Positions 7,112 to 40,782 of a stretch of DNA of 64,000 nucleotides are shown in pieces; positions within the stretch are counted from its first letter, which is position 1; every line of letters begins with the position of its first letter. The stretch lies in contig JAFLBZ010000001.1 of the NCBI GenBank assembly GCA_017303715.1, positions 124,001 to 188,000 of the forward strand, written 5' to 3'. Source of the stretch: Rhodothermia bacterium. GTDB lineage: Bacteria > Bacteroidota > Rhodothermia > Rhodothermales > UBA2364. The notes beneath the pieces were generated by a model, which was not told the DNA's origin, did no database searches, and worked only from the letters and a program-made list of their open reading frames with translations. A program made the position numbers and the translations under genes.

Positions 7112-7124
7112 GGTTCGTCACATG

Positions 7125-7820: not shown

Positions 7821-7846
7821 AGCCCTGCATTTGTGGGGCTTTTTTA
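7821..7846 (+). terminator. Rho-independent terminator after peptide copy 4
   Basis: AGCCC and GGGCT arms around a short loop are followed by six T residues, 28 bases after the stop codon of copy 4. This separates the peptide gene from the M28 peptidase downstream. Confidence 0.8.
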
Positions 7847-7923
7847 TTTGGGATATTGCAAAAGACTATAGTAATTACTAAACTGAAAGCAAATTAGTCC
7901 CCAAAACATGAACACATGAACAC

Positions 7924-9333: not shown

Positions 9334-9392
9334 TCGTTTCACCCAAATTGGCGGGGGCGCGAGTCCCCGCTACCCTTTCATTTTGCCCCATT

Positions 9393-10106
9393 ATGCTTAT
9401 TCCTATCTACGACGACGACAGTAAACTTAACAAACCAGCTTATTTCACCATTGGCTTATTGGTGGCGAATATCTTGTTTTTCCTCTTTCAGACGAACGAC
9501 TGGGTCTATGGCTTTGGCTTGATTCCACAAGAATTGGTAAATGGAACAGACTACATTGGCAAGATCAACTTATCTATTGATGGCAAAAGCCTCACAATTC
9601 CACAGCACATGGGGCCATATCCTATTTACCTCACGCTCGTTTCGTCCATGTTTATGCACGGTGATTGGCTACATTTAGGCTTTAACATGCTCTACCTTTG
9701 GATTTTTGGAGACAACATAGAACATATTCTCGGTACTCGGCGCTTTATCTGGTTCTATTTGCTAACAGGAATTATTGGCGGATTGGCACAAGTTGCCATA
9801 GAACCCAACTCTTGGCTTCCGATGATTGGCGCTTCTGGCGCTATTTCTGGTATTTTGGGTGCATATTTGGTTCTTTTACCCAAAAACAAAGTACGGGTGC
9901 TGTTTCTCTTTGTCTTTCGTTTCTCGGTTCCGGCTTTGCTCTTGCTTGGGGTGTGGATTGCGCTTCAGGTGGTGAATGGCCTTGAGCCAGAAGCCACCGA
10001 CCAAACGGCTTATGCTGCCCACCTCGGTGGATTTGTAGCGGGGGTACTTGGAGGGGTCATTATCCGATTTTTTACCAATTTCCACCAAAATCAGACGTTG
10101 ACTTAG
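9393..10106 (+). CDS. Rhomboid family intramembrane serine protease
   Basis: 237 residues from the ATG at 9393; the frame is open further upstream but overlaps the M28 gene and lacks rhomboid similarity there. Six or so hydrophobic segments are present. The catalytic serine is S148 in GASGAISG and the histidine is H210 in AAHLGGF; the loop HGDWLHLGFNMLYLWIFG is typical of the family. Between the two genes (9347-9367) lies a GC-rich hairpin (GCGGGG...CCCCGC). Substrates are not predictable. A second, unrelated-in-position rhomboid gene lies at 45.8 kb. Confidence 0.9.
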   Translation: MLIPIYDDDSKLNKPAYFTIGLLVANILFFLFQTNDWVYGFGLIPQELVNGTDYIGKINLSIDGKSLTIPQHMGPYPIYLTLVSSMFMHGDWLHLGFNMLYLWIFGDNIEHILGTRRFIWFYLLTGIIGGLAQVAIEPNSWLPMIGASGAISGILGAYLVLLPKNKVRVLFLFVFRFSVPALLLLGVWIALQVVNGLEPEATDQTAYAAHLGGFVAGVLGGVIIRFFTNFHQNQTLT

Positions 10107-10133
10107 AATTATGCGAACTATTGGCTTTAAGTC

Positions 10134-10167
10134 ATTGTTCTTAAATGAATTAACTCCTTTAAGTTGG
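10134..10167 (+). repeat. Dispersed 3' motif, copy at 10134
   Basis: ATTGTTCTTAAATGAATTA followed by ACTCCTTTAAGTTGG, 28 bases after the rhomboid stop codon. The same pattern follows other plus-strand genes at about 7215, 27256, 49537 and 50524. The flanks ATGA-TTAA and TTAA-TCAT can form a small stem here. Confidence 0.4.
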
Positions 10168-10252
10168 CTTAATCATCCCCAGGAACTTTTCATTTTATGG
10201 GTTTTCGATTTTACAGATAGTTTTTCGGGCTACGGGCATCATTTCGAGAAGA

Positions 10253-10609
10253 TCACGCAGTTCTCATTTCAACAAACACATGGCGGAGATAATCTTTAAC
10301 CCGATGGGTAAAATGTTGACCGGCTTCACTCAGGGTCTTCGGCTGACTAATTATATATTTATGATAGGCCGCATAAAATTGCATAGAAAAGGCCATTTCC
10401 GCTTCCGAGAAGGACTCCCCCCTGCCCTTTATAAAGAGGGGTGGGAAAGTAATTTCATAGCCATTTTCTTCGTCAAAGGTGACGTCACAGACGAGCGGTT
10501 CATTAAATGTAAAGATAAAATCGTCGAAACGAAGCAAGGAGGGCGCAAATTCCGGAAGTGCGTAAACCGGACTTGGGGGCGAAGGAGGTGTTTTTTTCCA
10601 AAATAACAT
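10253..10609 (-). CDS. Hypothetical protein (118 aa)
   Basis: I do not recognise this protein. It starts MLFWKKTPPSPPSPV, a short hydrophobic and proline-rich N-terminus, followed by a mixed alpha/beta region with aromatic residues (DDFIFTF, GYEITFPPLF) and a helical C-terminal half (EAEMAFSMQFYAAYHKY). No signal peptide or membrane segment is evident. It lies downstream of clpC in the same direction, but a hairpin separates them, so it may have its own promoter. Codon use is like its neighbours. Confidence 0.6.
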   Translation of the reverse strand: MLFWKKTPPSPPSPVYALPEFAPSLLRFDDFIFTFNEPLVCDVTFDEENGYEITFPPLFIKGRGESFSEAEMAFSMQFYAAYHKYIISQPKTLSEAGQHFTHRVKDYLRHVFVEMRTA

Positions 10610-10636
10610 AGCAGACCGACGGTGGTTAGGTAAGCA

Positions 10637-10665
10637 AACAGGGATTCCTAAAGGGAACCCCTGTT
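10637..10665 (-). terminator. Probable terminator after clpC
   Basis: AACAGGGATTCC and GGAACCCCTGTT arms, with a four-base loop and one mismatch, form a strong hairpin 20 bases after the clpC stop on the minus strand. The following T-run is short, so termination strength is uncertain. Confidence 0.5.
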
Positions 10666-10685
10666 ATAAAATAAGGCATTTAGTC

Positions 10686-13277
10686 CTAATCTTCAATAGT
10701 TTTATCGGCTGTTTCCTCGTCGCCCGATTTCTTTTGGCGTTTGGCTTTTTTTACGGGCGCTTTTTCCTTGGGTGTAAACGTAAGCGCATCTGGAGTTTCC
10801 GCTTTGTTATAGGAAATTTCGAGTACATCGCCATCGTTTAGGTTTGCCGATAAGATGGCCTCAGCCATTGGATCTTCGACATATTTTTGAATGGCCCGTC
10901 GTAGTGGTCTTGCCCCGAATTGTGCATCATAGCCTTTATCCACCAAAAACTCCTTGGCATCCTTCGTAAAGGCAAGTTGGATTCCCAAATCATGTACCCT
11001 TTGGAACAAGTCTTTGGCCATCACATCTATGATTTCCAAAATATGTTCTTTTTTCAACGGCTGGAAGACAATTACGTCATCAATCCGGTTTAGGAACTCA
11101 GGGTTAAATACCCGTTTAAGCGCATCCTCTACCGTACTTTTCATGCTTTGATAATTGATTTCCGTTTTTTCTTGGGAAAATCCTATTCCTTTGCCGAGAT
11201 TTTTAATGTCCCGCGCCCCAATATTGGAGGTCATGATGATAATGGTATTCCGGAAATCCACCCTACGACCCAGTCCATCAGTCAAAACACCATCATCTAA
11301 AACCTGCAAAAGGATGTTAAACACGTCTGGGTGTGCCTTTTCGATTTCGTCTAACAAGACCACAGAGTAGGGCTTCCGCCGTACCTTTTCCGTCAGTTGC
11401 CCCCCTTCTTCGTAACCTACATATCCGGGTGGCGCACCAATGAGGCGGCTTACAGCAAATTTTTCCATGTATTCCGACATATCAATCCGGATCATGGCGT
11501 CTGGAGAGTCAAACAAATACTCGGTGAGTACTTTTGCCAACTCGGTTTTTCCCACACCTGTTGGACCTAAGAAAATGAACGAGCCGATGGGTCGCTTTGG
11601 GTCTTTCAGCCCTGCACGGGTACGACGAATGGCACGTGCTAATTTTTCTACCGGTTCCGCTTGCCCAATCACCCGTCCTTTTAAGGCCGCTTCCATTTCC
11701 ATCAATTTCTTGCCCTCAGCTTGGGCAATTTTATCCACTGGAATCCCCGTCATCATCCCAACTACTGCTGCAATGTCTTGGAGGGCGACATCATGGACTT
11801 CGCTTTCAGCGCGTTGTTCCCACTCTGATTTTGCGCGATCCAAGTCCTCCAAAAGCCGTTTTTCACGATCCCGCAACCTTGCAGCCTCTTCAAACTTTTG
11901 GCTTTTCACCACGCGGTTTTTTTCTTCGCGGATACCTTCGATCTCCGCCTCTAAATCCAAAACCTCTTTGGGGACTTTAATATTGGAGAGATGAACCCGC
12001 GCACCCGCCTCATCCATCACATCTATGGCCTTATCTGGCAAGCAACGCTCTGTAATGTACCGATCGCTTAATTTCACCGCCAGTTCGATGGCTTCGTCAC
12101 TAAAGCGTACATTGTGGTGTTCCTCGTATTTTTGACGGATGTTTTTCAGAATTTCCACCGTTTCTTCGGGCGTAGAAGGATCCACCATTATTTTTTGGAA
12201 TCTCCGGTCTAAAGCACCATCTTTTTCGATGTATTGGCGGTATTCGTCTAATGTTGTCGCCCCCACGCATTGGATTTCCCCCCGTGCTAAAGCGGGTTTA
12301 AACATATTACTGGCGTCCAACGAGCCAGAAGCGCCACCGGCTCCGACGATGGTGTGCAACTCATCAATAAACAAAATGACATCTGGGCTTTTTTCCAATT
12401 CGCTCATCACGGCTTTCATCCTCTCCTCGAACTGTCCTCGGTATTTGGTACCAGCCACCAAACCTGCAAGGTCTAAGGTCACAATCCGTTTATCAAAAAG
12501 GATACGACTTACTTTCCGCTGAATAATCCGCAGGGCAAGTCCCTCGGCAATGGCGGTTTTCCCAACGCCGGGTTCCCCAATTAGGACAGGATTATTCTTT
12601 TTGCGCCGGCTCAACACTTGTGCTACACGTTCAATTTCCCGCTCGCGTCCCACAACCACATCCAACTTCCCCTCTTCAGCAAGTTTCGTGAGGTCTCGAC
12701 CAAAGTTATCCAAAACGGGTGTTTTACTTTTTTCCATTTTGTTTCTTTCTTTTGGAGAACCAGCAGTAGGACGATTACCACGGCTCTCCGGATTTCGCTG
12801 GCTCCCCGCAATCGGTTTATTGCGTCCGTGCGAAGTACCACCGCTAATGATGCTGTCTAATTCGGCTCGTGCCCCATCATAGGATACCGAGAATGCCTGT
12901 TGCATAATTTGAGCCGCAAGGTTTTCGTCGTCGCGCAATAGGCTGAGTAAGAGATGCTCGGTACCAATCACCTCACTTTTATAGAGCTTTGCTTCTAAGT
13001 AGGTGATTTTAAGAACTTTTTCAGCTTGTTTGGTAAGGGGGATATTTCCTGCGGTAAGCGTTCCGCCCGAAGTTCGAACAGTCTCCTCAATGGCAAGCCG
13101 GAGCCGATGCAAGTCGCATCCCATATTGCGTAGGATTTTGATTGCAATTCCTTCCCCCTCTCGGATAATGCCCAAGAGGAGATGTTCGGTTCCGATGTAG
13201 TCGTGCCCCAGTCGGATGGCTTCTTCGCGACTGAACGATATGACATCTCGAACCCTATTTGAAAAATTTCCTTCCAT
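10686..13277 (-). CDS. clpC: ATP-dependent Clp protease ATP-binding subunit ClpC
   Basis: An 863-residue Hsp100 unfoldase. Domains in order: two N-terminal Clp repeats ([16 protein letters not shown] and the following copy, residues 1-150), a variable linker rich in Gly, Asn and Pro (about 150-180), AAA domain 1 with Walker [10 protein letters not shown] near residue 235, a UVR-motif middle region ([19 protein letters not shown]), and AAA domain 2 with Walker [10 protein letters not shown] near residue 572. The C-terminal tail is charged and Lys-rich. It feeds unfolded substrates to ClpP, which is not in this window. Length and architecture are standard for ClpC. Confidence 0.97.
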
Positions 13278-27175: not shown

Positions 27176-27547
27176 ATGGGCATTTCCATCTCAACAAGGT
27201 CGAATCTGGCAGGGACTATAAATCATGTGTTTTAAACGTAAATAATGGAATTTGAATTGTTGTTATTAAAGAAGTTAACTCCTTAAAATTGGTCTCCGTT
27301 TTTCTATTTACGCATAAAATCCGCCAACAGATTTCGACTATGCGCAGCCACTATTTCTCGACATAGAAAGGCCCCTCAGCGATGAGGCTACCAAAGACTT
27401 CTCATAAAACACTATAACAAAATGTATTTAATAGACTTATACAAAATCAAAACATAGAATTCAATTTTCTTGCAACCCCTTTCAAACGCACCTATATTAC
27501 AACTGCCCTTACTGAAGCCCTATAAATACCTTCAAATCCCTAAATAG
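27176..27547. other. Intergenic region left of the CRISPR island, with a dispersed motif
   Basis: No gene is visible. At 27256-27293 it holds a copy of the dispersed motif (TTATTAAAGAAGTTAACTCC then TTAAAATTGG) seen after other plus-strand genes. No CRISPR-like direct repeats were found. Base composition turns AT-rich towards the island. Confidence 0.5.
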
Positions 27548-27991
27548 ATGTGTGCATCCATCGTACCCGATTTAACGTTTGGTGTTTTCCGGTTTGAAAT
27601 CCGATGCACCACCCACCTTCACCTTCGGCCATTTGTAGCTTCGGTTTTTCGCGGTGCGCTTGGCGGGGCATTCAGAAGATGGACTTGCCTGACGCGCATA
27701 GAAAGTCGCAAGGACTATTTACTTCGGCCACTGTACTTCTATAGTATGCAAAACTTGGAACCTTGGCTTTGCGAAAACCTTTCCCGAGGCCATCACCCTC
27801 ATCAATCGCAATACCCACTGGCAGTCCAAAAGGAGATACACCGCTCGGTTAGAAGCCGAATGAGAGAACGAGGGCTTTGTCGGAAAAATCACCTTCTCAG
27901 GAAATTTGGATCTTTTTGGCAAACCCTATTCGTCGGACAGTTTTTGCACTTTGGCCACGCCGCCATCTTTGGCTTAGGACATTCTACCTGA
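27548..27991 (+). pseudogene. cas6: Degenerate cas6 (crRNA-processing endoribonuclease remnant)
   Basis: The first part (27548 onward) reads as a Cas6/RAMP N-terminus, with FRFEIRCTTHLHLRPF and VFRGALGGAFRRWTC. From about 27774 the similarity continues in the third frame (ITLINRNTHWQSKRRY, then an in-frame TGA at 27861-27863, then GFVGKITFSGNLDLF). From about 27915 it returns to the first frame with FLHFGHAAIFGLG, the C-terminal glycine-rich loop of Cas6. Intact Cas6 proteins are roughly twice as long, so the central part is also deleted. The 147-codon open frame across the region is therefore a by-product of decay. It lies 380 bases upstream of cmr1 in the same direction. Family assignment rests on my reading of these motifs, not on a search. 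Confidence 0.72.
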
Positions 27992-28371
27992 TCTGTTTCC
28001 AATTTGAACCAAAGCACAACCTAAATCTTATAAAAACCCACCACCCCTCACCCATCGGATGCTCTACATCCGATCTGGTTTTTTCATGTGTTTTATTACA
28101 TATTACACACCTAAAAATAATTTGATTAACATCTTATTTTATATGTTTGGGGGTTTACTTTGGGATATTTTTTTTTTATTTTACCATGGAGTAAGAAATA
28201 AAGTTTTGTATTTTTGTCTATCATTAATGGTTCTCTGACAATTTTTGTGGAAAGCGACTCCTCAAAGCCTTTTAAACGCTTTGAGAGGTGTTAGACACAT
28301 CGAAATCATAAAAACTGTCAGAGAACCTCATTAATTTGACGTTCTTGACTTTACCGCTTATAATTTTTCTT
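27992..28371. other. AT-rich region upstream of cmr1, holding a MITE and a possible promoter
   Basis: No gene is visible. TTTG (28121) and TATGTTTG (28142) with a 17-base spacer resemble a Bacteroidota-type promoter (TTTG / TAnnTTTG), though the spacer is short. A 99-bp inverted-repeat element occupies 28229-28327, between this candidate promoter and cmr1. No CRISPR repeats are present. Confidence 0.4.
28229..28327. mobile_element. 99-bp MITE with 8-bp target-site duplication
   Basis: The element begins GGTTCTCTGACA and ends with its exact complement TGTCAGAGAACC; pairing continues to about 20 bp with two mismatches. Both sides are flanked by the identical octamer TCATTAAT (28221-28228 and 28328-28335), a perfect target-site duplication. 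The interior forms a second hairpin (CCTCAAAGC/GCTTTGAGAGG). Terminal GG and an 8-bp duplication fit ISL3-type transposition, but no transposase of that family is in the window. It sits 44 bp upstream of cmr1. Confidence 0.85.
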
Positions 28372-29295
28372 ATGGAAAGTTTATCATACACTTGTGAAGT
28401 TATAAGCCCCATGTTTCTAAATGGAGCAGACGGGGAGACACCGGAACTACGTCCTTCCAGTTTAAAGGGAGCCATGCGTTTTTGGTGGCGGGCTTTAAAT
28501 GGTCATTTACAATTTACGGATCGAACAGAGACACGCAACGACAAGACCACTGTACTCAATACAGGCTTGAAAACCCGCGAAACTCTAATTTTTGGAGGCG
28601 CAGGCGGCGGCAAAGCAGCACAACGCAGTTCCTTTTCGATTCAGATGCGGCCCAAAGAGATGTCTGTAGAGCAAGAAGCTTTCGTACCCCATAAACAAAA
28701 CATGAAAGCTAAAGCATTTAAGGTTGATTCCACTTTTGAGGTCATCTTTAGATTCCCAAAAGAGTATCGTGTCTGTGTGGTAGAAAACGGAAAGGAAATC
28801 GAAATATTTAACCAAGAGAAATTAGATGCCTTATTTCGACTCACGTGTATTCTTGGAGGCTTAGGAAAAAGAGTTCGAAGGGGAATGGGGAGCATAGGTA
28901 TAGAAACTATATCATTGGAAAATATTTACAATTACATTTCTATTTTATCACCACACTACTCTATAAAAAACAACTCAATCATCAATACATTCAGAGGAGG
29001 GACGCCAAGCTATGGTTTAATTGAAAAAATTGAAATCGGGAACTCAACAGAGCTTAAGTCCTATCTTGAAAGAATAAGCTATGCCACACATACAATTAAG
29101 TTAAAATATAAAGAAGCATATGAAGTCTCTATGGGACATGCCTCTAAAGGGAGGTATGCATCTCCAGTATTTGCTTCTATTGGTAAAGGCTCATATATCC
29201 CTGTAATTACAACACTTAAATTAGCTCCTGAAAGGAACAAAGATATTGCAAGTTTGAGGATCCAAGACGAATTTAAAGACTTAGTAATTAAATAA
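28372..29295 (+). CDS. cmr1: Type III-B CRISPR RAMP protein Cmr1
   Basis: 307 residues from the ATG at 28372; the frame opens 12 codons earlier but that stretch (MTFLTLPLIIF) lies outside the family. The N-terminal SPMFLNGADGETPELRPSSLKG block and MRFWWRAL are the Cmr1 signature, followed by LIFGGAGGG and the glycine-rich GGLGKRVRRGMGS. Cmr1 sits at the head of the Cmr complex and contacts target RNA near its 3' end. First gene of a ten-gene operon; the next gene starts 15 bp on. The second half is strikingly AT-rich compared with the first. Confidence 0.92.
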   Translation: MESLSYTCEVISPMFLNGADGETPELRPSSLKGAMRFWWRALNGHLQFTDRTETRNDKTTVLNTGLKTRETLIFGGAGGGKAAQRSSFSIQMRPKEMSVEQEAFVPHKQNMKAKAFKVDSTFEVIFRFPKEYRVCVVENGKEIEIFNQEKLDALFRLTCILGGLGKRVRRGMGSIGIETISLENIYNYISILSPHYSIKNNSIINTFRGGTPSYGLIEKIEIGNSTELKSYLERISYATHTIKLKYKEAYEVSMGHASKGRYASPVFASIGKGSYIPVITTLKLAPERNKDIASLRIQDEFKDLVIK

Positions 29296-29310
29296 AAGCT
29301 GTATATCATT

Positions 29311-31089
29311 ATGCGTGAAGTAATTTCTAAAAAATTGCCATTTCAAATCAAAGATGTTCAGCTACAAAACTTCCGTGGCTTTGGTAATTTCCAGTTGGCG
29401 GCTATAGATACAGAAGATACAGAAGATACAGAAGATACAGAAGATACAGAAGATACAGAAGATACAGAAGATACAGAGCATAATATTTCTGCTTTGGTAG
29501 CAGAAAATGGAAATGGAAAGACAACAATCCTTGACATTATTTCTGAGTTATTAAATCTCTTTCTATTCGAAACGATCCTTGAAGCAAATTATGTTCCGAA
29601 TATAAAACCTTCAGATATTAGGAATGATTCATTAGTTGCCAATGGCTCAATCAAGATTCTTGCTGAATATTACACTCATAACACTGATATATTAGAACTT
29701 TGCTCTAATATAATAGAACACATTTGTAGTATTGAATTTATAGTTGATATTTTGTCAGAGCATTCTAATCAAATAGCCTCTATCAAAGCAGAATTTGATA
29801 ATACTTGGAGACTTCTTTTCACAATTAAAGATTTAATTTCATTTGAAGATTCAATTTCATTTGAAATTGAATCAACTGCTGATATTAGTAACAATCTTTC
29901 AAATATTCAATCTAAATATGTTAACATTTCATCAATTGAGATTTGCGAATATATTAACAGTAAGTGGGTTCCACTTTTTGATCTAATTGAACCGACTAAT
30001 AAAAGAAATGAAATTGAATTAAAGTTTGAACTTAACAAAAACAATTTTAAGGTAACAGATGAATTTACGAAATTCACCTTCAACTATAACAATCAAAAGG
30101 CCACAAAAGAACAGCACTTACCCGAAGTATCAAAACTGAAAGATAATCTTGAAAGAAATATTGGTAGTTTGTGGGCTTATAATCTATCTCATAAATTTAA
30201 ACCTCAAGATATTGTATTTATTTACCAAGGAGATATGCCAATTACAACTACCCATCAAGACCTTAGATGGAAAGAAGAGTTGAGTATAGCTGATGTATAT
30301 TTAAACACCTTAAACAAAGATCGTTTTATACTCTCTGATTTCAATGATTGGCTATTTTCACTTTGGATTGACAATAAAAACATGTTCGAATCTATAAAGG
30401 AGATCATTATTGATTTTCTAAATGTAAATATTTTTAATAAATACACTTCTTTGTTTTTTGAAAAAAATTATTTAATGATTAAAAAGAGCACAACTACGTC
30501 TAAAGGAGGGGATTCAGAGATATCTTTTGAGATACACAAACTATCTACTGGCGAGCTGCACTACATAGGAATTATCGGGGAATTATTAATGAAATCATCA
30601 CCGTTTATCAAAGTTAATTCTGAAAATATAAAAACGGATTTAGAAAAACTCTCAGGAGTTGTTCTTATTGATGAGATAGATATGCATCTACATCCGCAGT
30701 GGCAAACGCATATTTGCGAAAAGTTAGAAAGTTTTTTTCCAAAAATACACTTTATTTTATCAACACACAGCTTATATGTAATTAATAATATTCCCGCAAA
30801 AAATATCTACATATTAAACGATTTCACTAGCCAAAATGCCCCACGATCTTATGGGCAGCCTATTGAATTTATCTCTGATGAAATAATGAATACACGTACA
30901 TCTGTTTTTAAGGAAGACTTCAATGACATATACCAACATATTTCTAATAGAAAAATTGATAAAGCCGAAAATCTTATTGCTGAAATTGAGAATAAAATTC
31001 GAAAGTACGAATCCGACTCTAATCTAACTAATTCTGAATTAATCAAACTAAAATCCATTATTGATAGAATCAAACTATTAGAAAAATGA
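29311..31089 (+). CDS. Septu PtuA-like AAA ATPase with (DTE)8 insert
   Basis: A 592-residue ABC-type ATPase of the AAA_15/AAA_21 (OLD/RecF-like) group. Residues 12-30 form the first strand (KDVQLQNFRGFGNFQL), residues 33-56 are eight tandem Asp-Thr-Glu triplets, Walker A is ENGNGKTT (residues 65-72), the signature is LSTGE near 411-415, and Walker B is VVLIDEID with D454/E455, followed by an H-loop (LSTHS). Together with the HNH gene, which overlaps its stop by 4 bp, this is the PtuA/PtuB arrangement of Septu and of some retron effectors. Here the pair sits inside the Cmr operon between cmr1 and cas10. Its partner role to Cmr is unknown. Very AT-rich. Confidence 0.8.
   Translation: MREVISKKLPFQIKDVQLQNFRGFGNFQLAAIDTEDTEDTEDTEDTEDTEDTEDTEHNISALVAENGNGKTTILDIISELLNLFLFETILEANYVPNIKPSDIRNDSLVANGSIKILAEYYTHNTDILELCSNIIEHICSIEFIVDILSEHSNQIASIKAEFDNTWRLLFTIKDLISFEDSISFEIESTADISNNLSNIQSKYVNISSIEICEYINSKWVPLFDLIEPTNKRNEIELKFELNKNNFKVTDEFTKFTFNYNNQKATKEQHLPEVSKLKDNLERNIGSLWAYNLSHKFKPQDIVFIYQGDMPITTTHQDLRWKEELSIADVYLNTLNKDRFILSDFNDWLFSLWIDNKNMFESIKEIIIDFLNVNIFNKYTSLFFEKNYLMIKKSTTTSKGGDSEISFEIHKLSTGELHYIGIIGELLMKSSPFIKVNSENIKTDLEKLSGVVLIDEIDMHLHPQWQTHICEKLESFFPKIHFILSTHSLYVINNIPAKNIYILNDFTSQNAPRSYGQPIEFISDEIMNTRTSVFKEDFNDIYQHISNRKIDKAENLIAEIENKIRKYESDSNLTNSELIKLKSIIDRIKLLEK
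29407..29478 (+). repeat. Eight tandem 9-bp repeats inside the ATPase gene
   Basis: Eight head-to-tail copies of GATACAGAA; the last has one change (final A to G). The unit is 9 bp, so gain or loss of copies by replication slippage keeps the frame and changes the number of Asp-Thr-Glu triplets just before the Walker A motif. Confidence 0.97.
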
Positions 31090-31802
31090 AAAACATTACA
31101 AAAAAAGAAGAACCAGTTGAATTTAAGAACTGGAAAGAAAACGAAGAAACCAAGTGCGCCATAAAAAGATATACCGATAACAAAGATGCCCAAGGCTTGT
31201 GGGATTATTTCCCGTCTTCACCTGAAAAGGAAGATAAAAAAGATTTAGATATTAATTATTATTCCAGAGCAGAACTTAAAGAGTATATAGCAAGTGAGCA
31301 AGGATATATTTGTTGCTATTGTAATTGCGAAATAAAAGAAGATTTATCCAAATATAACATTGAGCACCTTATTCCAAAATCAACAAACATTAACCTTACT
31401 CTTTCATATGAGAACCTTGCACTTTCGTGCGAGAAAAACGAAACTTGTAACAAAAAAAGGGGAAACATTTGTTTACCAATATTGCCAACCGATCCAAACT
31501 GTGAGCTATCTTTCCGTTATCAATTAGATGGGAAAGTAAATCCAAATTATAAAGAAAATCAAGAGGAATATAAGCCTCTTGAAAAAATGATCGAAGATAC
31601 ATTAAATCTAAATAATACATCGCTTAAATTAGATAGAAAACAAGTGATAGAAGGATATATTTTTGACAGTGGAAATACACTTTCAAGTGAAGATTTAGAA
31701 AAAATAAAAAACAAACTGTCTGAAAAGAACAAAAAAGACGACAAGTACAAATATAAAGAATTTTGTAGTGCAATTATTTCTTGTATCAATCAACTAATTT
31801 AA
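31086..31802 (+). CDS. Septu PtuB-like HNH nuclease (TIGR02646-type)
   Basis: A 238-residue HNH endonuclease. The core is YICCYCNCEI (C76, C77, C79, C81), then IEHLIP with H94 and the pattern LSYENLALSCEKNETCNKKRG, which supplies the Asn/His of the HNH fold and the second Cys pair of the zinc site. The N-terminal 65 residues and Lys-rich C-terminal part match the PtuB/TIGR02646 layout. Its ATG overlaps the ATPase stop (ATGA), indicating translational coupling, and its stop is 3 bp before cas10. In Septu, PtuB is held with PtuA and cuts DNA; here control by the Cmr complex is possible but unproven. AT-rich like its partner. Confidence 0.8.
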   Translation: MKNITKKEEPVEFKNWKENEETKCAIKRYTDNKDAQGLWDYFPSSPEKEDKKDLDINYYSRAELKEYIASEQGYICCYCNCEIKEDLSKYNIEHLIPKSTNINLTLSYENLALSCEKNETCNKKRGNICLPILPTDPNCELSFRYQLDGKVNPNYKENQEEYKPLEKMIEDTLNLNNTSLKLDRKQVIEGYIFDSGNTLSSEDLEKIKNKLSEKNKKDDKYKYKEFCSAIISCINQLI

Positions 31803-31805
31803 TAT

Positions 31806-33626
31806 ATGCCGCACCTATTTACATTCACAATAAGCCCAGTTCAATCCTTCATTGAACAATCAAGGAAAGTAAAGGACTTACTTTCTGCAAGTAGGATTCT
31901 AACCCGACTTATTGAGGCGGGGATGAAAGAGTTTTTATCCAAAACCAAAGACGCTAGCGAATGTAGGATTATTTATCCTGCTTACGAAGAGAGATTCAGC
32001 AACACAGACAAGTCTTATCCCAACATCTTTAAAGCAATTTTATCAGGCAAAGTATGGTCTAATGAACAACTTCTCGATATAGGCCGTGCTGTAGAGGCTA
32101 CCGTTAGGGAATCACTACGGCAAATTGCAATTAATTTACTTGAAGAACATACACGAGAAGGAAGCGCTATTTTAGAAAAGCAATATGATTTGATCATGAG
32201 CCAGTCTAATCCTGTAGAGGGCAGTAACGCAACGGCTCAGTTCTTTCAGCAACTTAAGAACTTCCCTGAGTGTTATTGGGTCTTTGAGTCCTATACTGAT
32301 CAAGAGGGGTATGCAGACGCTGATATAAAACTGAACAGGTCTCTTGCCGCAATCAAGAACCTTAAAACTTTCGATCAGCTTCATGAAGAGCCAGGAAGAA
32401 AATGCAGCCTGACAGGAACAGCTAATGCCCTATTTTTTAAAAAAGAAGGCAAACTTCCTTCATATGCAATCAATGAGCCGATTAGATTATATAGTAGCCA
32501 AGTAGAAGCAGGAGAAGGATTGTCTGCTTTAGGTTTCCTGAAACGTTTTTATTCTTCTATTCCTCCAACAGCGTCAACAGCAGAGGTTGCCTTGTGGGAT
32601 GATATTTGCAGCATATCAAATGAAAAATTCCAAGACTTACTCACCGATGAGCGTTTTGATCACCAAATGCTATACGAGGAGAATAGAAACCAAATTCCCG
32701 ATAAGTTAAGACCAACATTTAAAAAGCTCTTAGAGGAGTCCAAGACTGGATTTAATACTAAATACTATGCCGTGATTCACTTTGATGGCGATCAGATGGG
32801 AAAATGGATGTCAGGCGAATATCTTCAAGATGGAGCAGACCTGTCAAATTTTCAAAATGAATTATCCAAACATATAGCAAAAATGGCAAATGACGTACGC
32901 TCGATGCTCAATATAGAAACTGGGTTTAATAGAAGTGAAAAGTTTGGTGGCTATACGGTATATGCAGGAGGTGACGATTTTCTGGGATTGGTTAATCTAC
33001 AGAGTTTGTTTGGTTTTTTAGAAAAGATACGAATCTCTTTTCACACCTTAAATACAGAGATCGAACACAGCCCTTATATTCAACTAAAAGAGCCTAAAAA
33101 GATTACTTTTTCAGCAGGCATTGTCGTTGCTCACTACAAAACACCGCTTTCAGAAGTCCTAAAACAAGTTCGGGCAGCCGAAAAATATTCTAAAATAAAT
33201 GGACGAGATGCTTTTACATTTAAAATCCTGAAACACTCTGGCGAAGTTCACCAATCCACATTTAAGTGGGGAGTTGATGATGTAAATCTTAAAGCCTTAA
33301 AAAACATAACGGATGCCTTAAAACAAGAGAAGCTAACCAATACTTTTATCCAACAATTAACCAAAGATCTTCAATATTTATCTGGTTACTCTTTTAAAAG
33401 CATTGATGATCAACAAATGGAAGCCTCTATAAATGAGATAGTCCATGTCGAAATTCCACGCTTAATTAAGCGATCCAATCCTTCAAAAGAAAACAACATA
33501 GCTAACCTCATAAAACATATTCAACAATTATGGGAAACAGGTGAAGAAGAAACACATAAAGAAAAACAAGTCACTAATTTTATTCATGCCTTACATACGA
33601 CTGATTTTTTAAGCCGGAAGCTTTAA
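31806..33626 (+). CDS. cas10: Cas10/Cmr2, cyclic-oligoadenylate synthase, no HD domain
   Basis: A 606-residue Cmr2. It opens with LFTFTISPVQSFIEQSRKVKDL, the usual start of the Cmr2 N-terminal palm region, so there is no room for the HD nuclease domain found in longer Cas10 proteins. The first palm shows HFDGDQMGKW (D327, D329), and the active cyclase motif is AGGDD with G388-G389-D390-D391, intact. It should sense target RNA and make cyclic oligoadenylate, which activates the CARF protein three genes on. Starts 3 bp after the HNH gene. Helical C-terminal D4-like domain follows. Loss of HD means no expected ssDNA cleavage. Confidence 0.93.
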   Translation: MPHLFTFTISPVQSFIEQSRKVKDLLSASRILTRLIEAGMKEFLSKTKDASECRIIYPAYEERFSNTDKSYPNIFKAILSGKVWSNEQLLDIGRAVEATVRESLRQIAINLLEEHTREGSAILEKQYDLIMSQSNPVEGSNATAQFFQQLKNFPECYWVFESYTDQEGYADADIKLNRSLAAIKNLKTFDQLHEEPGRKCSLTGTANALFFKKEGKLPSYAINEPIRLYSSQVEAGEGLSALGFLKRFYSSIPPTASTAEVALWDDICSISNEKFQDLLTDERFDHQMLYEENRNQIPDKLRPTFKKLLEESKTGFNTKYYAVIHFDGDQMGKWMSGEYLQDGADLSNFQNELSKHIAKMANDVRSMLNIETGFNRSEKFGGYTVYAGGDDFLGLVNLQSLFGFLEKIRISFHTLNTEIEHSPYIQLKEPKKITFSAGIVVAHYKTPLSEVLKQVRAAEKYSKINGRDAFTFKILKHSGEVHQSTFKWGVDDVNLKALKNITDALKQEKLTNTFIQQLTKDLQYLSGYSFKSIDDQQMEASINEIVHVEIPRLIKRSNPSKENNIANLIKHIQQLWETGEEETHKEKQVTNFIHALHTTDFLSRKL

Positions 33627-33646
33627 TCTTTATTTAAACAAACATT

Positions 33647-34720
33647 ATGGCACGTATTACAATTACAGCACTTGATACCTTATTCTTTAGAGATGGGAAA
33701 CCTTTTTCTAAAGGAGAAGAGACTTGGGCAGACAGCACATTTCCACCACCACCTTCGGTACTCTATGGTGCGATTAGCACATGGTATATTGAACAAAAGA
33801 AGGGATCGGATGCTGCAACACCGTTTGATCTTTTAGTCGAAGAAAGTAAAAAGATAGAAATAAAACATATCTTTTTAGAAATTGAACATAAAGGAGTTTA
33901 TGTGCCCTTGCCTTTAGACTTGATGCTGGCGGAAGAAAAAAACAAAGAATTAACTGTAACAAAAATGCGACCAATAGCTAAACCAATCTCTCATTTAGAT
34001 GGTTTACTTTTTAATAATTTGCCGATTGAATCAGTACTCACACCTGATGAAAAACTATCTTCAAAGCCAGTCACAAATGGTTTAATTGCCATCGAAGATA
34101 TTACTAATTATCAAAAAATCGAAAAGCCTGACACGCTAAGGCTAATGCCCCTTATTAAGAGTGAGCCTAAATTAGGGATTTCTATTTCAAAAAAACTACA
34201 AAGTGCTGCTGACGGTAATCTCTATCGCGTTGACCTAAAACGCCCTCTGGGTGTTAGCATTGTTTTGGAAGTTGAATTTCCAGACTTCCCTTTTCCACCG
34301 TCTTCTGAACATATCATCAAATTAGGGGGCGAAGGACGCTTTGCAAACATGAGTTTAGACCATAACCCAGAGCCTATCTCTATCAAGCCTCCCACCATTC
34401 AAAGTGATGGCTTTTTTAAACTTTATCTCTCTACTCCAGCATTTTTCAAAGACGGTTGGAAGCCCGACCTCATACCTTTTGGTTTTTCTAAAGAAACCAG
34501 ACTGATTGCTGCGGCTGTAGGACGACCTCTACATATTGGTGGATTTGATATGCGTTACCAAAAACCCAAACCCATGAGACGCGCCGTCCCTGCTGGAAGT
34601 GTGTATTATTTTCAAACACCTTCTCCAGAAGCCATTACCAACATACATGGAAATACGATATGCTCAACAAAAGTTGACTGTAATCAAGGCTTTGGCATTG
34701 CTTATGTTAGCGCACTTTAA
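33647..34720 (+). CDS. cmr3: Type III-B CRISPR RAMP protein Cmr3
   Basis: A 357-residue Cmr3. The N-terminus ITITALDTLFFRDGKPF and the FPPPPSVLYGAI block are diagnostic; KLGGEGRFANM and the C-terminal PAGSVYYF...NQGFGIAYV supply the RAMP glycine-rich loop. Cmr3 caps the 5' tag end of the crRNA together with Cmr2. It begins 20 bp after cas10 and ends 21 bp before the CARF gene. Less AT-rich than the ATPase, HNH and CARF genes that flank it in the operon. Confidence 0.93.
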   Translation: MARITITALDTLFFRDGKPFSKGEETWADSTFPPPPSVLYGAISTWYIEQKKGSDAATPFDLLVEESKKIEIKHIFLEIEHKGVYVPLPLDLMLAEEKNKELTVTKMRPIAKPISHLDGLLFNNLPIESVLTPDEKLSSKPVTNGLIAIEDITNYQKIEKPDTLRLMPLIKSEPKLGISISKKLQSAADGNLYRVDLKRPLGVSIVLEVEFPDFPFPPSSEHIIKLGGEGRFANMSLDHNPEPISIKPPTIQSDGFFKLYLSTPAFFKDGWKPDLIPFGFSKETRLIAAAVGRPLHIGGFDMRYQKPKPMRRAVPAGSVYYFQTPSPEAITNIHGNTICSTKVDCNQGFGIAYVSAL

Positions 34721-34741
34721 ATCTTTAATTAACCATCACCT

Positions 34742-36184
34742 ATGAAAACCATTATCACAACTGTTGGAACATCTTTGTTCAATAATTACCAAAAGAAAGA
34801 GGTTAGTGAACTTTTTGACCGTTACTATTCGCCTATTGACGTTTCTCTCAAAAGATTCGATAGTCTTAATGCAAATTCAATTTATTCAGAAGTACATGCT
34901 TCTCATATAGAAAAAATTTCCAACAACATTAGAAACTGGTATAAAAGACTAAGCGACTTAGAACCCGACTCTACCTATAGGCAATACCCATCTGCTGAAA
35001 TTTCCAGTTGTATCCAAATTGCCGAAGAAGCCCAAGAAGAAGATTTTCGTATTCACTTGATTGCTACGGATACCTTGCTGTCTGTTCTGGCTGCGGAGTT
35101 AATTACTGTTTGGTTTGAACAAAACTTAAATGGCGCTACGAATATAAAAGAAGTTCTTTTTCAAAGACACGAAAAAGATGAGATTGAAACAAGCCAATAT
35201 GTTATATCTAAACTGTCTATTCAATCCCAAGAAGAATATGAAGAAGGATTACTGAACTATATAGATAAAATTAATACGATAGTTAGTAAAAATAAAAAAG
35301 AAAGAAAAAAATGTATTCTAAACATTACTGGTGGATATAAGGCCCTTATACCGATTGCAACAGTATATGGTCAAGTGATGGATATTGAAATTAAGTACTT
35401 ATTCAATGATGAAAATATGAACATTATTACAATACCTCAGCTTCCTTTTGCATTCAACACAGATATATATGAACTATTCTTCGATTTCATTAATAGTCAA
35501 AAAATCGCAGAAGGCAAGGATAGAACAGATGGAGATAAAAAACTAATAAATGTTCTAAGCAATCAAAAGATAATTAACCCTGAAACCTTAGAACCAACCT
35601 CAATAGGTAAAATTATAAAAACAAAAATAGAAAATAGTCATAATGATCAAAAAACAATCACAGGAAGAATTGTTGAATTACTAATCAGTGAACACCTTCA
35701 CGCTGAACATAAAACTCTAACTAATAGAAATTATAATATTGCGAGAGGTTTAAAATTTTCATGGGACAAACCAAACTCCAGATTTTACTATAGCTACAAA
35801 GATGACTACGAAAATTTTGAAATTGATTTTCAAATTTCACACGAAAATATAAATAAAATCACAGAGTTAACATGGATAGAAGTAAAACCGTTAACAAATT
35901 CAGGATTAAATGGTTTGCTTAAGCAAATAAAAATTCGTACAGATTTTTTACTTGAATTTAAAACAGAATTTAATGTAACAATATTTAAAATTATTCTTTA
36001 CACAATCAGTCTTTCTCTAAAACACAATCAACAATTACAAAACATTATTAACTTGTTTAATGATCGTAATATTAAATACGAAATACAATACATCATTATT
36101 CCAATTACAAAGAATGGACTACCTAATGAAAAGGAGCTATGCGAACAAAAAATAGAACTACTTAACGAATTACCATCATTTTAA
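34742..36184 (+). CDS. CARF-domain nuclease with PD-(D/E)XK C-terminus (Card1/Can2-like)
   Basis: A 480-residue protein. Residues 1-230 form a CARF domain of the APE2256/Csm6-Csx1 type, with TTVGTSLFNNY at the N-terminus and NITGGYKALIP near 197, the two cyclic-oligoadenylate contact motifs. The C-terminal half (about 300-480) has a restriction-like core: a glutamate helix, FEIDFQI near 358, then WIEVKP near 378, i.e. D-(x)n-ExK. This is the layout of cOA-activated DNA/RNA nickases such as Card1 and Can2, and not of HEPN-type Csm6/Csx1 (no Rx4-6H seen). It sits between cmr3 and cmr4 in the operon and is the expected output enzyme of Cas10 signalling. Very AT-rich. The nuclease call is inferred from the motif. 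Confidence 0.78.
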   Translation: MKTIITTVGTSLFNNYQKKEVSELFDRYYSPIDVSLKRFDSLNANSIYSEVHASHIEKISNNIRNWYKRLSDLEPDSTYRQYPSAEISSCIQIAEEAQEEDFRIHLIATDTLLSVLAAELITVWFEQNLNGATNIKEVLFQRHEKDEIETSQYVISKLSIQSQEEYEEGLLNYIDKINTIVSKNKKERKKCILNITGGYKALIPIATVYGQVMDIEIKYLFNDENMNIITIPQLPFAFNTDIYELFFDFINSQKIAEGKDRTDGDKKLINVLSNQKIINPETLEPTSIGKIIKTKIENSHNDQKTITGRIVELLISEHLHAEHKTLTNRNYNIARGLKFSWDKPNSRFYYSYKDDYENFEIDFQISHENINKITELTWIEVKPLTNSGLNGLLKQIKIRTDFLLEFKTEFNVTIFKIILYTISLSLKHNQQLQNIINLFNDRNIKYEIQYIIIPITKNGLPNEKELCEQKIELLNELPSF

Positions 36185-36196
36185 ACCATAACCATC

Positions 36197-37207
36197 ATGT
36201 ATAGAACAGCAAACCCGATGTTCCTCATCTGTGAAAGTCCCACACATGTGGGAAGCGGGTCAGATGTAGGCATTATTGACCTTCCTATTCAAAGAGAGCG
36301 TCACACCGACTACCCTAAATTTGAAGCAAGTAGTATTAAGGGCAGCATTCGTGAAGCCTTTGAGCGAAAATTTCCTGCACCAAATCAAATAAATGATGAT
36401 CTTTCGAGTGACCTGCAAAGTGAGTGGGTCAAAATCCATCGTGTATTTGGATACGATAGCAACAACAAAGCCTTGGAGAGATCGCTAAAAAAGGTAAAAG
36501 TACAAAATGCTGAAAACAATACGGGAACGTTAAGTTTTGCCGGATCACTTGGCTTTAGCGATGCCAGAATTTTGTTTTTTCCGGTCAAGTCTATGAAAGG
36601 GGTATTTGCTTGGGTTACATGCCCATCCGCCTTAAGTACCTTTTATAAAGAAGCAAAAATGGCAAGCATATCCAACTTAAAGGAATTACAATCTCTCAAA
36701 GAAGTTGATGTAGAACCAACAAACGCCATTACCATGCCATCAACCCGGTTAGGCATTGCAGAAAAAATTGTACTTGAGGAATTTACCTTTAGTTTGCAAG
36801 AAGAGGTTGGTCTTGAAGAATCTTTTACATGGCTTGCCAATCAACTATTCTCCGAAGAGGATCCAAGACGTGCTAAATTTGCCCGTGATGTCGTCATTTT
36901 ACATGATGATGACTTCAAAGACTTTGTCAACCTTTCAACAGAAGTGATTACCCGAACCAAAATCAACAATCAAACGGGAACTGTGGAGAAAGGGGGCTTA
37001 TTTACCATTGAGTACCTTCCAACCGAAACGATTCTATATAGTTTAGCTCTTACAGCACCTGAATTTACGGAAACTCAAAACGGGCTTAAAGAAGAGGATG
37101 TCTTTAATTTCTTAACCCAATTACCAGACTATTTCCAAATTGGTGCTGATGCCACTTTGGGGAAAGGTATCGTTCGCCATAAAATCTTAAGAGGAGGTAT
37201 ATCATGA
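36197..37207 (+). CDS. cmr4: Type III-B CRISPR RAMP protein Cmr4 (target RNA nuclease)
   Basis: A 336-residue backbone subunit. HVGSGSDVGIIDLPIQRERHTDYP contains D28, which aligns with the catalytic Asp26 of Pyrococcus Cmr4, so cleavage of bound target RNA at 6-nt steps should be intact. The SSIKGSIREAF block and the C-terminal GADATLGKG loop are typical RAMP elements. Its stop overlaps the cmr5 start by 4 bp. Several copies per complex are expected. Confidence 0.94.
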   Translation: MYRTANPMFLICESPTHVGSGSDVGIIDLPIQRERHTDYPKFEASSIKGSIREAFERKFPAPNQINDDLSSDLQSEWVKIHRVFGYDSNNKALERSLKKVKVQNAENNTGTLSFAGSLGFSDARILFFPVKSMKGVFAWVTCPSALSTFYKEAKMASISNLKELQSLKEVDVEPTNAITMPSTRLGIAEKIVLEEFTFSLQEEVGLEESFTWLANQLFSEEDPRRAKFARDVVILHDDDFKDFVNLSTEVITRTKINNQTGTVEKGGLFTIEYLPTETILYSLALTAPEFTETQNGLKEEDVFNFLTQLPDYFQIGADATLGKGIVRHKILRGGIS

Positions 37208-37620
37208 GTTCAACCATTCCCACGCTTGAACGCGGACGCGCTACTGCGGCCTATAGCGCAGTTTACAAGATCAAAGATCGAGGTAAGGTCAGCAAAGAGT
37301 ATAAGTCTTATGCGAAGAAGTTACCCATGATGATTAAAACCAATGGGCTTGGTCCTGCGCTTACGTTTGCTTGGTCAAAAGGCTCCAATAAAACCGAATC
37401 TGCTTGGGGATTGCTTTTCAGTCATATTCGAGAATGGTTAACCCATTCTCAAAACAAGCACTTAGTGCCTCAATATCAACCCGGGCAAGAATTTATTCAA
37501 TACCTTATCGGCTTAAATAGCTTTGAATATAGGGCAATTGCTATTGAAGTTTTGGCTTATCTGGGTTGGGTCAAACGGTTTGTAGATGGTTTAATTGAAG
37601 GAGAAGCCGACGATTTATAA
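37204..37620 (+). CDS. cmr5: Type III-B CRISPR small subunit Cmr5
   Basis: A 138-residue helical protein. TLERGRATAAYSAVYKI at the N-terminus, YAKKLPMMIKTNGLGPAL and the WGLLFSHIREWL region are the Cmr5 pattern. It forms the minor filament of the complex. Start overlaps the cmr4 stop (ATGA), so translation is coupled. Length is normal. Confidence 0.93.
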   Translation: MSSTIPTLERGRATAAYSAVYKIKDRGKVSKEYKSYAKKLPMMIKTNGLGPALTFAWSKGSNKTESAWGLLFSHIREWLTHSQNKHLVPQYQPGQEFIQYLIGLNSFEYRAIAIEVLAYLGWVKRFVDGLIEGEADDL

Positions 37621-37644
37621 TCTCTATTTTTGGGAGTATTTAAC

Positions 37645-38796
37645 ATGGAAAAAGGCACTTTACTCATACAACCCACCAAGAAGGGGTATGCAGCAAGGAT
37701 TCGATTTACAAAACGTTCAGGTCAACAATCTGAATTGATTGTTACGTCATTCAAGCCAACCCAAGAACACTTTGAAAAATACCACGATCAGCCTTGCGAT
37801 TTTTTAAGGGATAACGGGAGCCTCACAACGCTCATTGCACATGATGGCTCATATTTGGTGGGTAAGATCGTAGTGGCGGATGCAAAGAAAACGCATGGAA
37901 ATTCCGACAGTGCATATGTCGAACAGAAAAAGAGATACCCAGATGCTTTTGATCCTCATCAAACGAAACTACCTCAAGACACCCGCAATGCACTCAAAAA
38001 CATTGCTTCGCCCGACAACTTTGCTCTTAAGTTTTCGCAAGCTGCACGTTTTGATGAGAAACATTTCTCCTTTTATAAAAAGGATAAAAGAAGCGACAAA
38101 AGTTACTTAATTCAAGCGAATTATGGTGATACATCTTTTGAAGCATTGGTTAAACGTTCTGAACAACAAGCAAAAGTCTTGTTCAAAGCCAACAATGTGG
38201 TTGTAAAGACCTATAAAATAGACTGGCGCTACATACAGGGACTTGGTGGAGCATCTGTATATGAAGTTGGAATGACCTTGCATCCTGTTTATGGATTCCC
38301 TTATGTGCCTGCAAGTGTCATAAAGGGGATTGTCAGGAGTTGGATTATTACGAATGCTTTTTCCAAAAACGGGCTTCCCTCGGAAAAAAATGCGCTTTTA
38401 GATCCTACTTTTTGTGATATTTTTGGATGTCCTACAGAATCTTATTATAAAGAGGCACGGAAGGGAAATGTCACGTTCTTCGATGCTCTCCCACTTAATG
38501 CCCCTGAAATTGAGGTGGACATTATGAGTCCACATTATGGGGGTTATTACGGCGATTCTACAGGCAAGGTACCTCCCGCAGATTACTTAAGAGTGATACC
38601 TGTACCGTTTTTGGTTATTACCAATACCTCTTTTCGGTTTTTGATGGCATCTCATGAATTGTCCTACATCAAAGAGAAAAAAATCCAAGGTCAAACGTTA
38701 AGTGGATGGTTTGACGATGCCTTGAGAAATCATGGTATTGGTGCTAAAACCGCACTCGGTTATGGGCTTATGAACCCTGCCCCCCATGCTTCTTAA
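37645..38796 (+). CDS. cmr6: Type III-B CRISPR RAMP protein Cmr6
   Basis: 383 residues from the ATG at 37645, which follows a TGGGAG Shine-Dalgarno-like sequence; an upstream TTG at 37630 is less likely. The first 90 residues form an extra beta-rich segment (MEKGTLLIQPTKKGYAARIRF), longer than the shortest Cmr6 proteins. The RAMP core shows YPVY-type VYGFPYVPASVIKGIVRSW, DIMSPHYGGYY and the C-terminal GIGAKTALGYG loop. Cmr6 contacts the 3' end of the crRNA. Its last 11 bp overlap the following small gene. Confidence 0.93.
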   Translation: MEKGTLLIQPTKKGYAARIRFTKRSGQQSELIVTSFKPTQEHFEKYHDQPCDFLRDNGSLTTLIAHDGSYLVGKIVVADAKKTHGNSDSAYVEQKKRYPDAFDPHQTKLPQDTRNALKNIASPDNFALKFSQAARFDEKHFSFYKKDKRSDKSYLIQANYGDTSFEALVKRSEQQAKVLFKANNVVVKTYKIDWRYIQGLGGASVYEVGMTLHPVYGFPYVPASVIKGIVRSWIITNAFSKNGLPSEKNALLDPTFCDIFGCPTESYYKEARKGNVTFFDALPLNAPEIEVDIMSPHYGGYYGDSTGKVPPADYLRVIPVPFLVITNTSFRFLMASHELSYIKEKKIQGQTLSGWFDDALRNHGIGAKTALGYGLMNPAPHAS

Positions 38797-39157
38797 TCTA
38801 TCCAATCATCCTTATGCGACTTGGCAGGACGTACAGAAGGCAGAGGCGGAGAAGCGTTTTGGCGCAGTGATGGACTTTCCTTTTCCGGCGGTAGATCCGG
38901 CATGGTCTTCTGAGGCCGTGTCGGACTTGGCGAAATCGGTGGTGGAAGCAATCAAGCCCATGTCTCCTTCGGCCATACATGTAATGGGAGAAATGACCCT
39001 CACGTTTACCCTTGTGGCGCTATTTCAGGCGGCGGGATTTGCCTGTGTGGCCTCTACCTCCGAGCGTTTGGTACATGAAACTGCGGATGGAAAAAAAGTG
39101 GTTACGTTTACCTTTACACAATTCAGGGCATATCCTCGACTTTCTTATGGGGATTAG
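38786..39157 (+). CDS. Small type III-associated protein (NLSNHP family), CARF-like accessory candidate
   Basis: A 123-residue protein whose ATG overlaps the cmr6 stop by 11 bp, making it the last gene of the operon. It reads NLSNHPYATWQ at the start, MDFPFPAVDP at about 32, HVMGEMTLTFTLVALF near 66 and CVASTSER near 86, an alternating alpha/beta pattern like a minimal Rossmann or CARF fold. I have the impression that similar small proteins recur next to type III loci, and a ring-nuclease or cOA-binding role would fit, but I cannot name the family securely. GC content and codon use match the host chromosome, unlike the AT-rich ATPase/HNH/CARF genes. Confidence 0.6.
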   Translation: MLLNLSNHPYATWQDVQKAEAEKRFGAVMDFPFPAVDPAWSSEAVSDLAKSVVEAIKPMSPSAIHVMGEMTLTFTLVALFQAAGFACVASTSERLVHETADGKKVVTFTFTQFRAYPRLSYGD

Positions 39158-39565: not shown

Positions 39566-40782
39566 GTGTTTTAACGTTTTAATTTTCAATGTTATTACTA
39601 CAAGCGGCTTGATACCTATTTTTCAACTTTTGTCTTGCCTTGTCTGTGGTAAATGACCAATCAATCTTTATAGCCAAATCGTTGCGATTGCATTGCCATG
39701 CCAATACTTCTTGTTCTAAAATCTCTTTCTGACCTATTCTATGGTCTAAACATTGACGGGAAAGTGCAGAAAATTCTATCTCTGCCATATTTAACCACGA
39801 TCCGTGTTTAGGGGTGTAATGAAATTCAAGTTTGCGGCTCAATGCGCTCGCTTGGTCAAGGGGCAAGTTCTCGTAAAATGAACCTTTACTATGAGTAGCG
39901 TAATTGTCTTGAACCACACATATTTTCTTCTTATCTGGGTAATGAGTGGTCACTAACCAGTGCATAAATTGGGCATAATCGTTTCGCTTTTTCGTTTCGG
40001 TTACTTGTACATAACGTTGTCCTGTGTCTATGTCATAAGCTAATAAGACATTGCACACCCCATTACGAAGGTATTCACAATGTTCTTTGGCTGTTTGATT
40101 CGCTTTCGGTGGTAAAGGCGCTAAGACTTCGCCATGTAACACACAGGGTCGCTCGTCAAAACAAATACGAGAAACGTCAGCTTCAACTTCTTCTTGATAC
40201 AACGTTAAAACATCTTCCATACAGGCTATATAATCTCCTGTAATTGTGCCAAAACACCATTGTTGTTTTAACCAAGGTTTAAGGTGGCTTTTTTTAAAAC
40301 GGAGGCAATGGCATCTTCCGAAATCGAGTCGATGTATTCTAATTTTACCAACTGTTCGGCAATCAGTTTCAGAGTCCATCGTCCGCGCCCTTGTATGGGA
40401 GCAGAGCAAGCAATCGCGGTAATGTGTGCTTCTATTTCAGGCGTTACTTTTCTGGGTTGTCCTGATCTCGGTTTTTCAGTCAAAGCAGCATTTAAGCCTT
40501 CTTTTTCATAACGGTTTAAGGTCTGATATACTCTTGCTACACAGACACCTAAATCGGTGGCAATGTCTTGGGCATGTTTGCCTTGAGCATTATCCCGTAA
40601 GATTTGGCAGCGAATAATCGTACGGCTGGAGTGAACTCCTTTTTTTAACGTATTGTGGATCACAACAGCATCGTTGTCTGTTAATTTGATCTTTTTATAA
40701 GGCTTGCTCATCATATTTTGTGTTTAAAGTGGAAATGTCTCAAGATACCAATTTAAATACAAAAACTAAAACGATGGAACAT
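39566..40782 (-). mobile_element. IS630-family insertion sequence (1217 bp)
   Basis: Imperfect terminal inverted repeats of about 22 bp (left GTGTTTTAACGTTTTAATTTT, right complement ATGTTCCATCGTTTTAGTTTTT; five mismatches) flank the transposase. Both ends are bordered by TA (39564-39565 and 40783-40784), the target duplication of the IS630/Tc1 group. The transposase stop codon lies within the left repeat. No gene is clearly interrupted. Confidence 0.85.
39579..40714 (-). CDS. IS630-family transposase, two frames joined by -1 frameshift
   Basis: The first frame (40714 to 40268) encodes 148 residues: a helix-turn-helix with the IS630 pattern (DIATDLGVCVARVYQTLNRY) and EKPRSGQPRK. The second frame, running to 39579, encodes the DDE catalytic domain: D in ICFDERP, D in CVVQDNYATHS and E in NMAEIEFSAL. 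The frames overlap at a T-TTA-AAA slippery heptamer (around 40290-40300, reading GTT TTA AAA AAA), so a -1 shift gives a single full-length enzyme of about 378 residues. All three acidic residues are present, so it could be active. Confidence 0.85.

Follow-up and report, generated by a model that had tools for sequence, protein, structure and literature searches.

Organization of the locus

The window analysed here (64 kb of DNA, G000:C1:124001-188000, from a draft genome of 4.35 Mb and 62 contigs) harbors the broken remains of a cas6 gene and, downstream of it, an operon (28372-39157) in which the genes follow one another in the order cmr1, PtuA-like, PtuB-like, cmr2, cmr3, CARF protein, cmr4, cmr5, cmr6, csx20. 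The features, in window coordinates, are as follows.

27425-27547, + strand: upstream stretch, putative old cassette promoter (blastn homology with sister genome G002 starts at 27425)
27548-27991, + strand: cas6 pseudogene by sequence, an open 147-aa frame with an out-of-frame middle (PADLOC profiles; frame switches relative to G002)
27746-27904, + strand: middle piece of the remnant, ancestral reading in the next frame, with a TGA at 27861-27863 (PDLC01477 positions 226-269, E 6.2e-7; alignment)
28229-28327, no strand: 99-bp MITE-like insert with inverted ends and an 8-bp target duplication (absent in G002)
28372-29295, + strand: cmr1 (TIGR01894, 43.5 bits, cut-off 28.65)
29311-31089, + strand: PtuA-like ATPase (PADLOC PtuA, E 3.8e-52; NF041760, 103 bits, cut-off 500)
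31086-31802, + strand: PtuB-like HNH nuclease (PADLOC PtuB, E 1.1e-40; TIGR02646, 76.8 bits, cut-off 52.15)
31806-33626, + strand: cmr2 (Cas10), GGDD motif read in the ORF, no HD domain seen (TIGR02577, 148.5 bits, cut-off 79.4)
33647-34720, + strand: cmr3 (PF09700, E 8.6e-51)
34742-36184, + strand: CARF-domain effector (PF09651, E 2.4e-21; PADLOC CARF_RelE, E 8.1e-48)
36197-37207, + strand: cmr4 (TIGR02580, 221 bits, cut-off 87)
37204-37620, + strand: cmr5 (TIGR01881, 69.4 bits, cut-off 27.9)
37630-38796, + strand: cmr6 (TIGR01898, 115.5 bits, cut-off 51.1)
38786-39157, + strand: csx20, probable cA4 ring nuclease (PADLOC Csx20, E 1.7e-37; NF040559, 28.3 bits, under its cut-off of 70)

All of cmr1 through cmr6 were found at full length (Cmr3 by Pfam, and Cmr1, 2, 4, 5 and 6 by NCBIfam profiles), constituting a type III-B (Cmr) effector module and bearing out the impression of an initial annotation, made from the DNA letters, that the Cmr genes are intact. 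The cmr2 reading frame displays the AGGDD motif of a Cas10 cyclase (a predicted activity), and Csx20 is described as degrading cA4 (PMC12409355). The closest Cmr operons within a phylum sample were found in 8 of 394 genomes, the window's own included, at a limit of 1e-20, and the five full-length relatives display 34-37% identity. The five related loci that were fetched are ordered cmr2-cmr3-CARF-cmr4-cmr5-cmr6, with cmr1 placed after cmr6 in four of the five and the fifth stretch (L082) ending within cmr6; none of them yielded a match to PtuA or PtuB. A Cmr2 scan of a further contig collection returned no relatives.

Two mobile-element features were also noted near these genes. The MITE-like insert, which lies between the cas6 remnant and cmr1 and might affect transcription, has inverted ends of 21 bp and is flanked by the 8-bp target duplication TCATTAAT, and a second copy elsewhere in the genome (C9:108981) is 99% identical and carries an 8-bp duplication of its own. 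Immediately beyond csx20, and on the other strand, lies a DDE_3 transposase ORF (39579-40409) that appears IS630-like by eye.

Structure of the cas6 remnant

The 147-aa ORF at 27548-27991 runs uninterrupted from ATG to stop. The initial annotation had recognized three Cas6 blocks distributed over two reading frames upstream of the Cmr genes, and its peptides lie exactly where it placed them: VFRGALGGAFRRWTC and FLHFGHAAIFGLG share the reading frame of the 147-aa ORF, and GFVGKITFSGNLDLF is in the next frame. Searched as it stands, the ORF matches the PADLOC profile PDLC01477 with its N-part (profile positions 2-57 of 296, E 2.5e-13) and PDLC01496 with its C-part (positions 233-275 of 281, E 1.4e-8), while the middle piece, translated in its own frame with an X at the stop, again matches PDLC01477. 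Because the two ends and the middle frame all match Cas6 profiles, both ends of Cas6 are present and positions from approximately 58 to 225 are gone (some 170 of 296), in agreement with the earlier claim that the centre is missing. These absent positions, together with the frame changes, leave the remnant without a complete two-domain Cas6 in any one frame, and the element at 27548-27991 is, judged from its sequence, a cas6 pseudogene.

Several details of the earlier description required adjustment. The TGA said to interrupt the gene at 27861 is indeed found at that position, but it interrupts only the ancestral middle frame, and a ribosome starting at 27548 would read on to 27991. In addition, the 'LDLF' of the second block is located just beyond the second frame change, near 27905. 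Of the families proposed for an alignment, PF10040 aligned to ORF residues 28-145 with E 0.011, its 16.9 bits falling short of the cut-off of 25, and an NCBIfam search of the ORF (the collection that includes TIGR01877) returned no match; a remnant scoring over cut-off for either family is ruled out by those scores, and it is the PADLOC Cas6 profiles and the sister copy that place it instead.

Divergence from sister copies within the genus

A sister species of the same genus (G002) carries the same cas6 upstream of cmr1 (locus L016). In blastn comparisons, its copy is 76% identical to the remnant across 240 nt and 69% identical across 267 nt, and its cmr1 is 71% identical to that of the window across 681 nt. 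A cmr1 query in the correct reading frame gave 66.9%. The alignment indicates that approximately 190 bases of the G002 copy, located 5' of the middle piece, are deleted in the window, and that a one-base frame difference exists near 27905.

The codon positions at which the two copies differ agree with the initial description of the reading frames. At 27548-27745, 33 of 66 frame 2 third positions differ, versus 31 of 132 other positions (one-sided Fisher p 0.0002); at 27746-27904, 26 of 53 frame 3 third positions differ, versus 31 of 106 others (p 0.012); and at 27905-27991, the excess returns to frame 2 third positions, with 14 of 29 differing versus 13 of 58 others (p 0.014). When the middle segment was taken in frame 2, no third-position excess was observed (p 0.996). 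The segment limits were picked from the same alignment, and the p values thus lean toward the frame-switch reading; with that proviso, the divergence appears to switch from frame 2 to frame 3 and back to frame 2.

The same comparison offers a rough view of when the gene failed. Per site, the N-part of cas6 (50 codons) shows 0.21 nonsynonymous and 0.72 synonymous differences and its middle part (60 codons) 0.32 and 0.62, as compared to 0.19 and 0.74 for cmr1 (256 codons); synonymous sites are near saturation, which makes any estimate of constraint rough. Since the cas6 values resemble those of cmr1, cas6 would have been under constraint before its loss, and would have evolved much as a functional gene does over most of the interval since the two copies diverged. 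The homology extends upstream into the non-coding stretch 27425-27547, which resembles G002 about as closely as the gene does (30 of 123 positions differ, compared to 64 of 198 in the cas6 N-part), while the genes farther upstream differ between the window and G002. This stretch may correspond to the cassette promoter; a search for its counterpart in another species of the genus (G001) gave no clear match.

In all three species of the genus that were examined, the cas6 gene that adjoins a type III locus is disrupted, and the lesions differ. In the G002 copy, an in-frame TGA occurs, the frame shifts early, and profile positions 65 to 164 are uncovered; the cmr1 of this species is itself cut, with homology stopping at about position 11727 of L016 and being followed by transposase-like ORFs (by eye). 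The G001 copy covers profile positions 3-130 only and directly precedes a distinct type III operon, comprising CARF_Card1, Cas10 (PF22335) and further RAMP-like genes (by eye); the csx20 gene of that species is 55% identical to that of the window. A class-wide search for Cas6 at a limit of 1e-10, which the window's remnant does not reach, yielded matches in 21 of 244 genomes. All 18 matching genomes outside the genus include a match whose open frame spans 288 aa or more, as judged by frame length, with neighbours checked for some only.

Intact Cas6 genes and arrays elsewhere in the genome

The initial annotation had proposed that the system would depend on a Cas6 and an array encoded elsewhere, or else had gone silent, and that an intact second cas6 with an array would make the window's copy a relic. 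Two intact Cas6 genes, each accompanied by arrays, were found on other contigs (C21 and C5), which supports that interpretation and, by the same reasoning, makes the window's copy a relic. The C21 protein matches the same profile as the remnant (PDLC01477, 170.8 bits, positions 2-294 of 296) within an open frame of 346 aa, and adjoins 28 + 8 = 36 repeats of one type. Its locus (L003, G000:C21:53000-70000, positions 1034-10715) comprises a second, divergent Cmr operon (PF22335 identifies its Cas10, and Cmr2 and Cmr4 match as well), an RT-Cas1 fusion, a DHH-like ORF (by eye) and a CorA-like protein (Pfam, 15.7 bits, under the cut-off of 27). The genome thus holds two type III-B systems, which probably employ different second messengers.

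The C5 protein belongs to another Cas6 family (245 aa; PF01881, 47.6 bits, cut-off 23; TIGR01877, 48.1 bits, under the cut-off of 58.65), and accompanies a type I-PGING locus with Cas5p and Csp1 over cut-off, Csp2 under it, a Cas1 of the I-B kind, and approximately 148 repeats. The possibility that this type I locus lacks Cas6 and relies upon Cas5 was ruled out by that 245-aa protein, detected through TIGR01877 and then PF01881. Counterparts of the C5 system (Cas1, Cas6 and the same repeat) exist in both G001 and G002, and thus in all three species; on that comparison, it is the shared resident system of the genus.

Within the 64-kb window, no array was found (arrays of at least three exact 22-mers were sought), nor was any C5 or C21 repeat with up to 3 mismatches, and those searches rule out a hidden array or repeat remnant. 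With neither its own array nor a working cas6, the window's locus is not a complete autonomous CRISPR-Cas locus. The earlier suggestion of a 'pure effector module' fits that composition (cmr genes whole, no array, cas6 broken), whether such a module is in use or silent.

A PtuA-PtuB pair within the operon

The ATPase and HNH genes between cmr1 and cmr2 match PtuA and PtuB by PADLOC (that is, they are Septu-like), with the NCBIfam equivalog cut-offs for PtuA and PtuB unreached. The two genes overlap one another by 4 bases, and the pair ends 3 bases before cmr2. The PtuA-like protein also displays approximately nine tandem DTE units, a short in-frame repeat tract early in the ORF, just ahead of the nucleotide-binding motif.

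Relatives of the pair were drawn from 32 loci of a contig collection (at least one of which, L114, matches the DTE repeat tract only) and from a phylum sample, which gave 13 matches in 9 of 394 genomes, one being the window itself. At the other PtuA/B loci, a Cmr neighbour was found at 0 of 44, both by tblastn and by profiles that do detect the divergent Cmr2, Cmr4 and Cmr6 of C21; the flanks extended up to 10 kb for 32 loci and approximately 1.5 kb or less for 12, such that distant neighbours would be missed. A literature search for PtuA together with Cmr found no paper containing all of the terms sought.

Proposed function of the module and alternative explanations

The observations are that cas6 is broken, that the cmr genes are whole, and that two other sets of Cas6 and arrays exist in the same genome. 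The reading that we favour, at a probability of roughly 0.7, is that a type III-B cassette lost its own redundant cas6, and that its Cmr proteins now rely on crRNAs processed by a Cas6 from another locus. A cassette comprising cas6, cmr1-6, effector genes and csx20 would have entered the lineage carrying its own cas6, at a time when Cas6 and arrays were already supplied by the type I-PGING system resident there (and by the second type III-B system in the present genome). Given that supply, the cassette's cas6 would have been redundant, and could have been lost by way of one large deletion within the gene, together with a stop and shifts of frame. From then on, Cmr would be loaded with crRNAs processed by the Cas6 of C5 or that of C21 (which of the two serves, like crRNA sharing and signalling themselves, we infer rather than observe), and upon sensing target RNA, Cas10 would make a cyclic nucleotide that switches on the CARF effector and that Csx20 would clear. 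The use of a Cas6 from elsewhere finds support in precedents: most type III systems are said to apparently use Cas6 supplied in trans (PMC12669027), and a III-B system is reported to use I-F-processed crRNAs (PMC5576922).

A rather unlikely alternative, although one with observations behind it, is that the whole cassette is decaying, with cas6 as its first casualty and the cmr operon silent. In G002, cas6 is lost and cmr1 is cut; the locus is thus dead in one relative, which counts against the favoured reading in that decay could be general, and in the window itself an insert separates the remnant from cmr1. Against silence, the ten genes downstream of the remnant, across roughly 10 kb, are all open and match their families, whereas a neutral operon of that length should gather stops.

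It is highly improbable that the 147-aa reading frame encodes a functional small protein of Cas6 descent. That frame is open from ATG to stop across the whole remnant, with both ends in the ancestral frame, but approximately 53 middle codons are out of that frame (the third-position divergence following the other one), the greater part of the Cas6 profile is missing from it, and the 147-aa reading is not kept in G002. Finally, although the assembly is a draft, an error of sequencing or assembly in a healthy cas6 is scarcely credible, given a gap that far exceeds base-calling error, three separate lesions within 450 bases, and other lesions in the same gene of two sister genomes.

An extension of the favoured reading would assign a role to the embedded pair as well: an array-less Cmr module, having shed cas6 and running on resident crRNAs, took in PtuAB, and target recognition by Cmr controls or couples to the PtuAB nuclease. 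This proposal is distinctly doubtful; if true, a Cmr-coupled PtuAB would represent a CRISPR-linked Septu effector, and the embedded pair would matter more if it were wired to Cmr.

Comparison with known systems

Since borrowing of Cas6 is reported for the majority of type III loci, the loss of cas6 beside this Cmr operon is ordinary in kind, a well-documented new case of a known situation, and the PtuAB pair within the cmr genes is the oddity of that otherwise ordinary case. A literature search for broken cas6 returned a match that, at title level, concerns CRISPR proteins of M. tuberculosis as secreted virulence factors. The remnant catches a type III module in the course of becoming dependent on another system's Cas6, and the presence in three sister species of separate lesions and a shared resident type I system makes redundancy-driven loss of cas6 testable by strain comparison. 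The repeated loss within one genus, and PtuAB inside a cmr operon, are the parts that a specialist might follow.

Three known systems invite direct comparison. The III-B system of Marinomonas mediterranea that operates on I-F crRNAs (PMC5576922) likewise consists of a cmr operon without an adjacent intact cas6, in a genome that also encodes a type I system with its own Cas6 and arrays; it differs in that, in the window, a pseudogene still marks the lost cas6, and in that crRNA sharing is here inferred. The Bacteroides fragilis-type III-B system with CorA, NrN and Cas6 (PMC10600005) resembles the C21 locus, with its cas6, cmr genes, CorA-like protein, RT-Cas1 and arrays, rather than the window's locus, and in C21 the CorA match is weak by Pfam and NrN was named by eye. 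The PtuA-PtuB effector pair of Septu and of retron Ec78 has its counterpart in the two ORFs spanning 29311-31802, which match the PtuA and PtuB profiles, whereas the window's pair is set in one tight gene string between cmr1 and cmr2.
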